In this document: one piece after another, positions 9,051-15,199 of the stretch
Layout of the letters: each line of letters opens with the position of its first letter
How positions within the stretch are numbered: position 1 is the stretch's first letter
DNA from: an uncultured Planctomycetaceae bacterium
GTDB taxonomy: Bacteria; Planctomycetota; Planctomycetia; Planctomycetales; Planctomycetaceae
DNA: 64,000 bases
Direction of reading: 5' to 3'
NCBI GenBank assembly: GCA_903871805.1
Contig: CAIQIE010000001.1
Coordinates: 1 to 64,000, forward strand
The notes under the pieces: model-generated
What the model saw: only the letters and a program-made list of their open reading frames with translations
What the model was told of the DNA's origin: nothing
The model's database searches: none
Translations under genes and position numbers: made by a program

Positions 9051-11678
9051 TTATTTTTCGGCCGCAAATTTGACGGGGAGAGGTATTCCCAAATTGTCCT
9101 TGCTGGGCTGAAATCCGTCTCCATCCACATCGACGAAAACCGGATTACTCAATGCGGCAGGATGTTGTTTTCCCCAGTCCGGGCCAGTGACGGGTCCGAG
9201 GACCTGAGTGCTGTGTCCGGTGAGGACGATCAGATGCGCGTCTTCGGGCAGTTCCATGTCGATTGTTTTTTCAAATCGAACGGTATCTCGGCTGAAAAGC
9301 TCCGGGTTCTTTTCCCGTGTGAACGTCCGCTGTTCATCGGGACGACCGTTGACAAGAAGCATCACGGTGTCCACATCCAGCCAGTTCGCGCACTGAACGC
9401 GAATTGTGGCGGATACTTTTCCCGAAGGGGCATTCAGATCCTGGCCGGAGATTGCTGGCGCGGAATTGTTGCCGGTTTCCCTGAAGGTGGCTTCCAGAAA
9501 GGGGCCATTTGACATCACAATATTTCCGTTCCGGGCAGCATCGCGCATCGAGTCCGACTGAATCTTTTCCGGTTCATCGGTGTCGGACTTGATCCAGATT
9601 CTCAGCCCACCGGATCCGTGAAAATTGTAGTGTGCATCGGTGTTCACAACACCATAAATTCGAAATCCCTGATTCAGCAGCTGCATCCAATTGAATGCCG
9701 TATGATTTTCGACAGGTTTGCCCCCTCGGATGTCAAAGCGATTGGGGCTAAGAAGCTTATCGATCGGGTGGATTTCCATCACATTCATCAGCCCAAACGA
9801 ACGAAAATATCCTTCGTCAGGAACCTGATCGCCGTTACGGTCATAAAACAGCCAGCCAATATCCGGGTGATTTTGCTGGATCAGTTTGACGCTGTTGTTG
9901 TCCCACGCCGCGGCGCGTTCGATTTGCGTTTCCGGACTGAGATCTGCGGTCGGACCGCCGCCATCCTGCGTTCGGGGCCTGTAAATCATTGGGAACATGT
10001 TCTGATGATTCAGTGGCAGTGGCTGCCCGGTGAGTTCCATTCCGGAGACTGTGGCAAAGACACCTGCCAGGTTCCATGTCTGCAGATGTTCATCGTAACT
10101 GCTGACTCTGTTATGTTCGGTGCACGGGGCAAACTCGACATGCTCAGCGACCAGGTTCAGGACTCGCCCCAATTGGCTTGCGGTGTTATCGCCGGACGGA
10201 GTGCTGTGGCTGTGGAAATCAGCACTGATCCAGCCCTTTGTGGAGACAAGGCGAGGAAGCTTAGTAGTTAATTCTGTAGTCCTTCCAGGTTCAATCTTCA
10301 GAGTCATGAACTCGGCGTGGTACTCCGGGCCATGACTGACAGTCACGTCATAATTCCCGGAAGCCAGATCGACACGAACAGCTCGACCGGCAGTGTAGGC
10401 AAGATTGCGAACGAAGAACTCAGCCGTTTCCGGTCCCCAGTTGGGTGTTGGTGTCTTGTCCTGTCCGGTGAATTCAATCTTTGCAGCAATCGGGTGACCA
10501 TCACCGTCGACAACATTTAGCAGTGCCGTTCCGGGTGTGTACTCTGTCAGATTAATTGACAGTTGACCGTCAGCCAGAGTGACCATTTGGGGAGCGAATT
10601 GCTGACCGGCCACGGTAACGTGAGCGACACACGACTGACCGGGAATGCGTACCTTTGCGGTGCCCTCTGCCCCGGTCAAAACAGTTCCGCGTTCCTGATC
10701 CGCGCAGATCAGGCGTACTTGTGCCCCTGCGACAGGACGTTCGCCTGTGACAACTTTGAGGACGGCTTCCTGAAGCGTCGACGTCTTCCCGGTACTGGAT
10801 TCAAAGTCTGCCCTAACACCGGGAAGGTGGGAGTTTACAAAGAGATGACGTGTCAGTGAAAAGGATTCGCCGGGTTTGATCACGATCGGTGTTTTGTCTG
10901 GTCGCTCATAGGTCAGAATGGATTCGCGGGAGTTTGCTCGGAGCTGAATCTGGTATCCCGGGGCATGAATTCCATAAGCCTGCTGCCAGAAAAGGTCATG
11001 AAACCAGAACAGTTCGTGAGTTCCATTTTCTGATTTGGTGAAATCTTCTTTGCTGCCGTCGGTACGAAGATCGTCTTCCGGAGACAGTGTTATTTCAGCG
11101 GCTGTGGTGTTTGTCCATGTGGATGTGGCGGTCAGGAATCGGTCGTTTGGTCCGAGTGACCACTGCACAGAATAGGCTGGTTGTGCGTCAGTTCCTTTTG
11201 CTTTGACAAGGGCCGTGGCGGTTGTGGAGGCTGATGTGTCTCCTTTGGCTCCGGTTAATGTCGCGGCCTGTGACGCAACGGAGATTTCAGAAAATGTGAA
11301 AGCTCGTCGTCCGGGAAAGAAGGCTCCCAACTGATCAGATTCGTGTTCGCGTGTTGTGAGATCGATGAGGCAACCGCCGACGTTGCGGATTGTCATATTG
11401 GCATTTCGTGACGATACGGGTTTTGCGATGACTGCCCGGATGAATTGGTTCTGCAGGACCGTATCCCCATAAATCGCATCAACTTCCTTTCCTTTGGGGA
11501 CAAGTTGATCCCATGTGCCTTCGCTGAGTTCCTGAACAATGACGGAGTTGTCATCGGAGGCCTTCACCAGTGCCGGGAAAGTGCAGCATGCAACCAATGT
11601 TGAAAACTGCATGAGGCAGAGGATGGTGGACGCGGGGGGCGAAGTGGCAACCGCAATGTCTGCAGGAAAACGTGGCAT
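9051..11678 (-). CDS. Secreted CehA/McbA-type PHP-domain metallohydrolase
   Basis: Exported protein of 875 residues. After the signal peptide come a beta-rich N-terminal half, two carboxypeptidase-regulatory-like beta domains (about 300-480: GAQVRLICAD, GHPIAAKIEF), and a PHP metallohydrolase domain opening with GWISADFHSHSTPSGD (HSHS about 489-492) and continuing with FAPCTEHNR and YGVVNTDAHYNFHG, the metal-binding histidines of the family. Some relatives hydrolyse carbamate or amide esters, but most are uncharacterised. The start is set at 11678 because AGGAGT lies 7 nt upstream; a longer frame to 11744 has no such support. It stands alone, convergent with the MacB-like permease. Confidence 0.85.
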   Translation of the reverse strand: MPRFPADIAVATSPPASTILCLMQFSTLVACCTFPALVKASDDNSVIVQELSEGTWDQLVPKGKEVDAIYGDTVLQNQFIRAVIAKPVSSRNANMTIRNVGGCLIDLTTREHESDQLGAFFPGRRAFTFSEISVASQAATLTGAKGDTSASTTATALVKAKGTDAQPAYSVQWSLGPNDRFLTATSTWTNTTAAEITLSPEDDLRTDGSKEDFTKSENGTHELFWFHDLFWQQAYGIHAPGYQIQLRANSRESILTYERPDKTPIVIKPGESFSLTRHLFVNSHLPGVRADFESSTGKTSTLQEAVLKVVTGERPVAGAQVRLICADQERGTVLTGAEGTAKVRIPGQSCVAHVTVAGQQFAPQMVTLADGQLSINLTEYTPGTALLNVVDGDGHPIAAKIEFTGQDKTPTPNWGPETAEFFVRNLAYTAGRAVRVDLASGNYDVTVSHGPEYHAEFMTLKIEPGRTTELTTKLPRLVSTKGWISADFHSHSTPSGDNTASQLGRVLNLVAEHVEFAPCTEHNRVSSYDEHLQTWNLAGVFATVSGMELTGQPLPLNHQNMFPMIYRPRTQDGGGPTADLSPETQIERAAAWDNNSVKLIQQNHPDIGWLFYDRNGDQVPDEGYFRSFGLMNVMEIHPIDKLLSPNRFDIRGGKPVENHTAFNWMQLLNQGFRIYGVVNTDAHYNFHGSGGLRIWIKSDTDEPEKIQSDSMRDAARNGNIVMSNGPFLEATFRETGNNSAPAISGQDLNAPSGKVSATIRVQCANWLDVDTVMLLVNGRPDEQRTFTREKNPELFSRDTVRFEKTIDMELPEDAHLIVLTGHSTQVLGPVTGPDWGKQHPAALSNPVFVDVDGDGFQPSKDNLGIPLPVKFAAEK

Positions 11679-12162
11679 CAAAGATACTCCTGTGTGTAGA
11701 GCGACAGATGGCTGGGAACGAAGTCGCAGAGGATCGTGGGTCACGGGGAATCAAATCGCAAGCGAATAAAGACCTGCGCCAGCATGCGAGTGTTGGCATT
11801 TGGTGGGTTCAGATGTTGCATTCTGCTGTGAAAATTCTGTGAAGAATTGCGAGGGATCAGGTTCGTAGTCTTCGATTCTGGGAGCCGTCGCTTTTGTATC
11901 AGCGTCACAGGAGAGTAACGGGCCTGAGACGTTTGTACAGACGAGGGGCATGACTGTTGCGAGTCTTGTTGTTTAGCCGTGGGCTGGCAGGATTTGGAGG
12001 CCTCGTGCCTTTACTGAACGAGAGTGGCTGCAGTTTGGGATTTTTTTGGCGGGCGCTAGGCTGCTTTTCAGGACGGTACCCCAGCGAAATACGGGGTTTG
12101 GGGGTATCCGTCTGATTGGTTGTCGCCGCGAGCATTTGGGAGCGAAGTTTTTGCCTGAGAGC
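11679..12162. other. Intergenic stretch without a convincing gene
   Basis: About 480 bp between two minus-strand genes. ORFs of 65-80 codons here have no recognisable features. On the left side of 12163 there are nested C-run/G-run pairings (around 12076-12112) that could form a hairpin downstream of the PQQ-propeller gene, without a T-run. The promoter of the PHP gene must lie here but is not obvious. Confidence 0.45.
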
Positions 12163-13739: not shown

Positions 13740-14033
13740 TCAGCGCGGGACCGTTGATAACCCAAGTTGTGTTCGGAGTTGCTGTTCAAGTTCGGCGAGC
13801 TGGCTGAGGCTTTGTTGATGGAGCAGTTCGATGGTATCAGGTTGCATGCCCAGGATCTCCTGGTAGGCTCGGATGCTGCCGATACGTTGTCCCATGGAGA
13901 GCCCTTCAAGCCTGCCCTCCAGTTTCCCTTCAATTCTACCCTCAAGCTTTCCTTCAAGCCTGCCCTCAAGTTTGCCTGCGAGTAATCCCCCCGCTCTTCC
14001 TTCCTCGATCCACTGCTCCGCGATTGTCGGCAT
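13740..14033 (-). CDS. Free-standing copy of the Rpn C-terminal domain (RpnS-like small protein)
   Basis: A 97-residue ORF from ATG at 14033 that repeats the C-terminal third of the Rpn protein encoded just upstream (MPTIAEQWIEEG... to ...STVPR) with only a few substitutions, but with six EG(K/R)(L/I)-type repeats instead of four. A strong ribosome site, AAGGGGAA, lies 5-6 nt before the ATG and is better than that of the matching internal ATG in the parent. The frame continues upstream to 14147, but that part is out of frame with its parent, so the duplicate cannot make a full nuclease. In E. coli Rpn proteins the separately translated C-terminal domain is reported to neutralise the nuclease; a similar antitoxin role is my inference. 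It may instead be a decaying fragment. Confidence 0.6.
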   Translation of the reverse strand: MPTIAEQWIEEGRAGGLLAGKLEGRLEGKLEGRIEGKLEGRLEGLSMGQRIGSIRAYQEILGMQPDTIELLHQQSLSQLAELEQQLRTQLGLSTVPR

Positions 14034-14116
14034 AATCGCTTCCCCTTTATTCGACCTTGTAAATCCGGAACTCCTGCGGCAGGACCGTTCCGGAGACTCG
14101 ATCAGAACCACTGACA
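13743..14116. repeat. Tandem duplicate A of the 3' end of the Rpn gene
   Basis: About 374 bp that match 14196-14546 at most positions, from the sequence around GCGCGGGAC...GTTG to GACTCGATCAGAACCACTGACA. The two copies lie in direct orientation, separated by about 80 bp. Copy A carries one extra 24-bp unit in its repeat array and small indels near 14045-14090 that shift the frame of the copied 5' part. Divergence indicates the duplication is not recent. Confidence 0.85.
13904..13975. repeat. 24-bp repeat array in copy A (three units)
   Basis: Three imperfect 24-bp units (each two 12-bp halves, like CTTCAAGCCTGCCCTCAAG on the plus strand) encode alternating EGKL/EGRL-type four-residue repeats. 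The corresponding array in copy B has two units, so unit number has changed since duplication. Confidence 0.85.
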
Positions 14117-14194
14117 GTGATGGCCATTGGAAGAGTTCTTCGAACAAATGATTTGCCGGGAACTCAAATTGAATACGGCATTAAGTTTTGTGTT

Positions 14195-14464
14195 TCAGCG
14201 CGGGACTGTTGAGACCCCGAGTTGTGTTCGGAGTTGCTGTTCAGTTTCGGCGAGCTGGCTGAGGCTTTGTTGATTGAGCAGTTCAATGGTATCAGGTTGC
14301 ATGCCCAGGATCTCCTGGTAGGCTCGGATGCTGCCGATAAGTTGTCCCATGGAGAGCCCTTCAAGCCTACCCTCCAGTTTGCCTTCAAGCCTGCCCTCAA
14401 GTTTGCCAGCAAGTAATCCCTCCGCTCTTCCTTCCTCAATCCACTGCTCCGCGATTGTCGGCAT
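14195..14464 (-). CDS. Candidate internally initiated small Rpn C-terminal protein (RpnS-like)
   Basis: Inside the Rpn gene an in-frame ATG at 14464 (MPTIAEQWIEEG) is preceded by AGGGAA with a 6-nt spacer, enough for independent initiation. The product would be 89 residues: a short helix, four four-residue EG(K/R)L repeats and the C-terminal helical tail. This copies the gene-within-gene layout described for E. coli Rpn proteins, in which the small form blocks the nuclease. The internal start is predicted, not shown. Confidence 0.5.
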   Translation of the reverse strand: MPTIAEQWIEEGRAEGLLAGKLEGRLEGKLEGRLEGLSMGQLIGSIRAYQEILGMQPDTIELLNQQSLSQLAETEQQLRTQLGVSTVPR

Positions 14465-15199
14465 AATCGATTCCCTGTTATTTGACAGCCCCTTCCGGAT
14501 CTCCTGCAGCAGGATCTCGCTCGGGACTCGATCAGAACCACTGACAAGGTAATTGAGTATCAGTCTGACAGAATCCGTAAGTTGCAGTTCGCCGGTGGTT
14601 CTGAGGATTTTGAAAATCTCAAACAGTTTCTCAATGATCTCAGGCCGCATTATATATTTGAAGACCAAAATTGTGGCCCGAAAAATTGGGTCCCCCTGAA
14701 AGACTGTGTCCTGAATCTGCCCAAGATCCATGATTTGCAGAGAAAAATCCGGAATAAAGGGGGCAAGCGCGTCCGGAACCGGAATCAACTGTCTCAACGA
14801 AGTTGGTGCATTCCAGGGGTTCTGTCCGTGGTAGACCACCAGCGGAATAATGCAGCACAGATCAAGTTGGTCTCTCAATCGTTGTTCGTTGATTTTCAGA
14901 ATGTACCTGAGCATTTGAAAGACGGTCATTGGATCTGCCGCACTTTTGTGCTCAAAGAGCAGATACACTGCCGCATCACTGCCGTCTGCGAGTTGTGTTC
15001 TGAAAAGCAGGTCTGAATGAGCCTGCCTGAGGTTCTCGTCGACGAAAGATGCCGGTGATGGTTCGAGAACGCTGAGATTCAGACACTGCGCGATATCCGT
15101 GGGAAGAGTTGACAGCAGGAAACTGCGAGCGTAATCCTGCTGCCCAAACGCCTGTTTGAAAAAGCTGTCGTGCGAGTTTGATGCGGGTAATATTGGCAT
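14195..15199 (-). CDS. Rpn family recombination-promoting nuclease / putative transposase (PD-(D/E)XK)
   Basis: A 334-residue protein of the Rpn/YhgA (Transposase_31) family, DNA endonucleases now linked to toxin-antitoxin and antiphage activity. The N-terminal domain has the expected HDSFFKQAF opening (Asp11), SDLLF (Asp63) and FEHKS (Glu83, Lys85), matching a PD-(D/E)XK active site; MLRYILKI and PLVVYHG follow, as in relatives. The C-terminal ~90 residues hold four EG(K/R)L four-residue repeats (LEGKLEGRLEG...), then a helical tail. An internal ATG at 14464 could give a separate small protein. The nuclease residues look intact. The 3' third is duplicated downstream. Acts alone in the cytoplasm on DNA; biological role here is inferred. 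Confidence 0.85.
   Translation of the reverse strand: MPILPASNSHDSFFKQAFGQQDYARSFLLSTLPTDIAQCLNLSVLEPSPASFVDENLRQAHSDLLFRTQLADGSDAAVYLLFEHKSAADPMTVFQMLRYILKINEQRLRDQLDLCCIIPLVVYHGQNPWNAPTSLRQLIPVPDALAPFIPDFSLQIMDLGQIQDTVFQGDPIFRATILVFKYIMRPEIIEKLFEIFKILRTTGELQLTDSVRLILNYLVSGSDRVPSEILLQEIRKGLSNNRESIMPTIAEQWIEEGRAEGLLAGKLEGRLEGKLEGRLEGLSMGQLIGSIRAYQEILGMQPDTIELLNQQSLSQLAETEQQLRTQLGVSTVPR
14359..14406. repeat. 24-bp repeat array in the Rpn gene (two units)
   Basis: Two 24-bp units encoding four EG(K/R)L repeats at the start of the C-terminal domain. Compare three units in the downstream duplicate. Such arrays change length by slippage or recombination. Confidence 0.8.

Follow-up and report, generated by a model that had tools for sequence, protein, structure and literature searches.

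Comparison of the two copies shows that the 3′ end of an Rpn nuclease gene (rpnL) has been duplicated in tandem in the window, by which we mean the whole 64,000-nucleotide stretch of DNA that was analysed; the part of the duplicate 5′ of the internal start has decayed, and the small open reading frame (ORF) has stayed open. Rpn nuclease genes are bacterial anti-phage toxins with an antitoxin encoded inside them. Our preferred reading, to which we assign a probability of roughly 0.45, is that the locus consists of an Rpn gene and an RpnS-type duplicate whose six repeats are mismatched to its four-repeat neighbour, and that this duplicate acts as a second specificity type and as a recombination partner.

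Rpn systems are found widely, and why many of them come with a spare antitoxin is the broader question here. At the window locus, in its relatives and in the E. coli parallel, the spare copy usually belongs to another repeat class and recombines with the toxin gene. This combination turns the matter into a testable question, namely whether the copy is an antitoxin for its neighbour, an antitoxin for another version of the toxin, or a store of specificity parts.

The rpnL gene and its internal start

RpnL exceeds both family cut-offs, with 169 bits for PF04754 (Transposase_31/YhgA-like) against a curated Pfam cut-off of 21 and 66 bits for the NCBIfam model TIGR01784 against a cut-off of 52.1, and is thus a member of the Rpn family as defined by PF04754, TIGR01784 and COG5464. 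Its PD-(D/E)XK residues D63, E83 and K85 are invariant in an alignment of 33 sequences. The internal ATG at 14464 corresponds to codon 246, where the C-terminal domain starts. This methionine occupies the exact position in 28 of the 33 aligned sequences and is off by one residue in the remaining five. The Shine-Dalgarno (SD) sequence in front of it is moderate, its anti-SD energy falling within the best 11.7% of the window ATGs; the start of RpnL itself has an ordinary energy (48% among all window ATGs). Both the full nuclease gene with intact catalytic residues and the internal start with a ribosome site, which an earlier note on this DNA had described, are therefore upheld. An internal start with a ribosome site and variable four-residue repeats are the marks of the RpnL/RpnS type that can be seen in sequence, and they support the reading of the window rpnL as an Rpn gene-within-a-gene and a putative toxin-antitoxin.

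Table 1. Features of the window locus, and loci elsewhere with comparable tandem copies
Feature	Position	Strand	Remarks
rpnL, full Rpn/YhgA-like PD-(D/E)XK nuclease, 334 aa	14195..15199	-	PF04754, E = 1.3e-49; TIGR01784
Internal RpnS-type ORF, 89 aa, four EG(K/R)L repeats	14195..14464	-	ATG at codon 246, SD AGGGA
Free-standing RpnS-type copy, 97 aa, six repeats	13740..14033	-	94% nucleotide identity to rpnL C-terminal domain; SD AAGGGGAA
Degenerate remnant, duplicated 3′ part of the nuclease domain	14034..14120	-	75% identity to rpnL codons about 219-245
Loci with tandem C-terminal-only copies: L032, L031, L042, L051, L053, L057, L072, L080, L084, L088, L119, L149, L166			Planctomycetota, Chloroflexota, Desulfobacterota

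The surroundings of the locus gave no defence-gene context, the neighbours being a PQQ propeller, a CxxCxxCC protein, CutC, a GDSL/SASA esterase and a cation ATPase. Neither RpnL nor the free copy matched a defence model in PADLOC 2.0.0, and a promoter and terminator scan returned nothing exceeding chance. An 897-aa ORF at 9051-11744 on the minus strand has no Pfam match at 1e-5. Just past the window on the same contig (L006, G000:C1:66055-69312) lies a nuclease-like gene of 346 aa that carries EGREEGREEG repeats and seems to belong to a different family. This locus, at 67555, has similar low-complexity repeats, with 33% identity confined to the repeat region, and was rejected as a relative of the free copy.

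The free-standing copy and its upstream remnant

The free copy follows rpnL in tandem on the same strand, and its small ORF is identical to the rpnL C-terminal end at 255 of 270 nucleotides. Chance cannot account for such a match, which is seen again at the syntenic loci of relatives. The SD sequence before its ATG at 14033 is strong, with an anti-SD energy in the best 1.9% of all window ATGs compared with the 11.7% of the internal ATG. RpnL carries the repeats KLEG RLEG KLEG RLEG, and the free copy KLEG RLEG KLEG RIEG KLEG RLEG; the difference is a single 24-bp in-frame insertion in the free copy. The downstream duplicate, its stronger ribosome site and its six rather than four repeats had all been claimed in the earlier note, and each of them is borne out.

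Upstream of the free-copy ATG, the homology continues for about 85 bp with 62 of 83 positions identical, and 1-bp and 6-bp indels break the frame. Identity thus differs significantly between the two sides of the ATG (p=2e-6). Lying downstream on the same strand, and having a start codon and ribosome site to itself, this duplicate of the RpnL C-terminal domain corresponds to the ypaA type of E. coli discussed below.

The AlphaFold model of the free-copy protein contains a long helix (residues 4-60) and two short helices, with a mean pLDDT of 70.8. Foldseek gave no match below E=0.001 for the model of RpnL or of the small protein, so that a likeness to the solved RpnAS structure (7TH0) is not confirmed by fold search, and sequence searches of the PDB returned no meaningful relative.

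Syntenic loci in two relatives

The window genome (G000) was compared with two genomes of the same genus, G003 and G016. Locus A, beside CutC and the esterase, is syntenic in the window, G003:C306 and G016:C215; locus B, next to a gene that we read from its sequence as mfd, is syntenic in G000:C319, G003:C489 and G016:C226+C260. At locus A of G003, RpnL has four repeats and the free copy seven, and the upstream remnant contains two stops and two frame-breaking indels, of which the free ORF has none. At locus A of G016, a nuclease domain 99% identical to that of G003 is joined directly to the C-terminal tail and 3′ flank of the spare copy; judged by this junction, recombination between the copies has removed the DNA that lay between them. 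The dS between RpnL and the free copy is 0.45 at locus A of G003 and 0.30 at locus B, compared with 0.05-0.07 between G003 and G016. Since the locus A value lies far above that between the species, the duplication predates the G003/G016 split and the collapse in G016 is the derived state. Between the window species and G003, synonymous sites are saturated (dS about 1.7), which leaves dS uninformative about a common origin of their locus A duplications.

At locus B of G003, RpnL and the free copy have equal repeat numbers (4 and 4), and G016 carries the same free copy. Locus B of the window genome, which is its second Rpn locus, has no C-terminal-only copy. Trees of the nuclease domain (G000:C1, G000:C319 (L065), G003:C306, G003:C489) group both Rpn loci within each genome, despite the synteny that indicates orthology across genomes; loci A and B have apparently exchanged sequence. 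A separate observation concerns L061, on a 10-kb contig of the metagenome-assembled genome (MAG) G003 (G003:C283), whose proteins are 100% identical to those of G000:C319; one of the bins has probably taken in a contig from the other species.

Repeat mismatch and sequence exchange across phyla

A wider survey took in 113 distinct RpnL loci, each followed by 300 bp or more of downstream sequence. A downstream C-terminal-only copy was found at about 14 of these loci in several phyla (Table 1), a fraction that describes a query-similar sample rather than a population; since an open frame was what identified a copy, badly broken ones may have been missed. As in the window, the copy lies downstream and usually differs in length by whole repeats, and the spacer length and the extent of the upstream remnant vary between loci. 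Two of them, L088 and L166, have two successive C-terminal-only copies after one RpnL gene.

Repeat number was unequal in 11 of the 13 scorable tandem pairs, always by multiples of 12 bp, that is, by whole four-residue units. Nearly all of the 14 copies have only in-frame indels within their ORFs. Six frame-breaking indels fall in upstream remnants and none in the small ORFs, save for L088, where a 17+7 pair adds up to 24; the p-value of this placement ranges from 0.0005 to 0.08 depending on the counting, 0.08 being the most conservative. Three pairs contain tracts of identity flanked by diverged sequence (135 bp in L032, 113 bp in L072 and 92 bp in L042; permutation p<=0.0005), and these tracts lie around the internal start. 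Such long tracts amid diverged sequence indicate sequence exchange between RpnL and the free copy. The identity run of the window pair (54 bp, p=0.06) is not significant. Downstream copies across phyla, a general repeat mismatch, and recombination between the toxin gene and the spare copy are what these comparisons add.

Selection on the free copy

For the window pair, dS is 0.145 and dN is 0.033. The resulting ratio of 0.23 (P=0.04-0.11 under neutrality of the copy alone) is only mild evidence for constraint on the free copy. The locus A pair G003A_S-G016A has a dN/dS of 0.18. At locus B, the orthologous free copies G003B_S-G016B_S differ by nine nonsynonymous and three synonymous changes (dN/dS about 0.94), and the tail of the free copy evolves faster than the matching RpnL tail (7/47 versus 1/49 residues, p=0.03). 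Taken together, the evidence of dN/dS for purifying selection on the free copy is mixed. The earlier note had called for a survey of Rpn loci for copies under purifying selection, and had named a dN/dS near one with stops in the downstream copy as speaking against its model. The survey did reveal downstream copies whose ORFs are intact and whose upstream remnants have decayed; at locus B the ratio came close to one, which is half of the adverse outcome that the note had named, but no stops lie inside the ORF.

These values bear most directly on the leading rival to our preferred reading, a decaying, non-functional partial tandem duplicate whose ORF would be open only owing to a recent duplication or last conversion. 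We consider it rather unlikely. It would account for the locus B ratio and for the already broken upstream part; moreover, about 15 substitutions in the window copy are too few to demand stops, and conversion would renew the ORF for free. Against it stand the lower ratio of the window pair, the in-frame indels in nearly all of the surveyed copies, and the G003 duplications at loci A and B, which are older than the G003/G016 split and still have intact ORFs. In addition, the protein of the E. coli counterpart, YpaA, has been detected by tagging (PMC10327210).

Possible roles of the free copy

In the E. coli RpnC system, adding one four-residue repeat to RpnCS meant that it no longer counteracted RpnCLS, and adding the repeat to both proteins restored neutralisation (PMC10327210). 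Given this effect of a single repeat, the window copy, which differs by two, is probably no antitoxin for the neighbouring RpnL. This argument applies a repeat-matching rule drawn from one published construct.

According to our preferred reading, the small protein would be translated from its own ribosome site and would form a long-helix, RpnS-like dimer, which, being mismatched, would fail to silence the four-repeat RpnL efficiently. Most likely, it would then serve both as a second specificity type and as a partner in recombination: a conversion or deletion involving the two copies would swap the C-terminal domain and the repeat number of the toxin at a stroke, and the toxin version arising from such an exchange could be neutralised by the copy. 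The non-significant identity run in the window and the locus B ratio count against this reading. Furthermore, repeat number mutates quickly, so that a mismatch is expected even without a function.

More speculatively, and in our view unlikely, free RpnS copies could be switch cassettes that, through conversion or deletion with the internal copy, give RpnL a new tail and repeat number in a single event and that, being already expressed, neutralise the new toxin variant. If this is true, the locus can change its specificity without self-poisoning, and the repeat mismatch across phyla is a feature rather than drift.

The mismatch also makes it doubtful that the window holds two antitoxins extending or tuning neutralisation, as the earlier note had proposed. 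A second working antitoxin for the adjacent RpnL, raising or tuning the dosage of RpnS, would fit the strong ribosome site, the 94% identity, the adjacency and the other residues, nearly all of which are the same, as well as the equal repeats at locus B of G003. However, the six versus four repeats, set against the effect of a single extra repeat in RpnC, and the prevalence of mismatch among other tandem pairs make this model improbable. A further idea is an anti-antitoxin role, in which the mismatched copy would titrate the internal RpnS by pairing with it and so make RpnL easier to activate. RpnS does dimerise through its repeat helix (PMC10327210), and both small proteins share the start and end of this helix, but the same mismatch should also weaken RpnS-RpnS pairing, and we regard this role as very improbable. 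Finally, an assembly artefact of the MAG can practically be dismissed: the genome is fragmented (446 contigs) and tandem repeats do misassemble, yet the copies differ by 15 substitutions, the 24-bp indel, their 3′ flanks and a diverged spacer, and the same arrangement occurs at the syntenic locus of another MAG.

Comparison with the E. coli Rpn systems

The tandem stand-alone RpnS arrangement is already known from rpnE-ypaA. Stand-alone downstream copies have been described in E. coli, namely ypaA after rpnE and another after rpnC (Zhong et al. 2023, PMC10327210), which refutes the earlier statement that no such case was described; our literature search on RpnS found nothing beyond this paper. 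In RefSeq, ypaA of K-12 (L066, 4905-6002) is a pseudogene, although its protein was detected (PMC10327210), and its homologues in other strains are likewise flagged as incomplete.

We compared ten rpnE loci with ypaA, picked down the similarity ranking rather than at random, and found unequal repeat numbers in all ten (+1, +1, -2, five times -4 and twice -5). The N-terminal halves of the paired proteins are near-identical, and their C-terminal tails are fixed and distinct. At three E. coli loci without ypaA, RpnE ends with the YpaA tail.

E. coli RpnA, RpnB, RpnC and RpnP2 share with the window RpnL the PF04754 nuclease domain, an internal start at the C-terminal domain and four-residue repeats in its first helix. 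Their sequence similarity to RpnL is low, and RpnL falls under the RpnA equivalog cut-off. As in the window, rpnE-ypaA consists of a full Rpn gene followed by a tandem C-terminal-only copy with its own ribosome site. The two differ in that RpnE of K-12 is annotated as inactive in RefSeq, with Gln at the Lys position of E-x-K, whereas the window RpnL retains D/E/K, and in that the duplicated unit of K-12 begins at the ribosome site, whereas that of the window includes the decayed sequence upstream. The E. coli and planctomycete loci are nevertheless alike in architecture, mosaic pattern, repeat mismatch and collapse.
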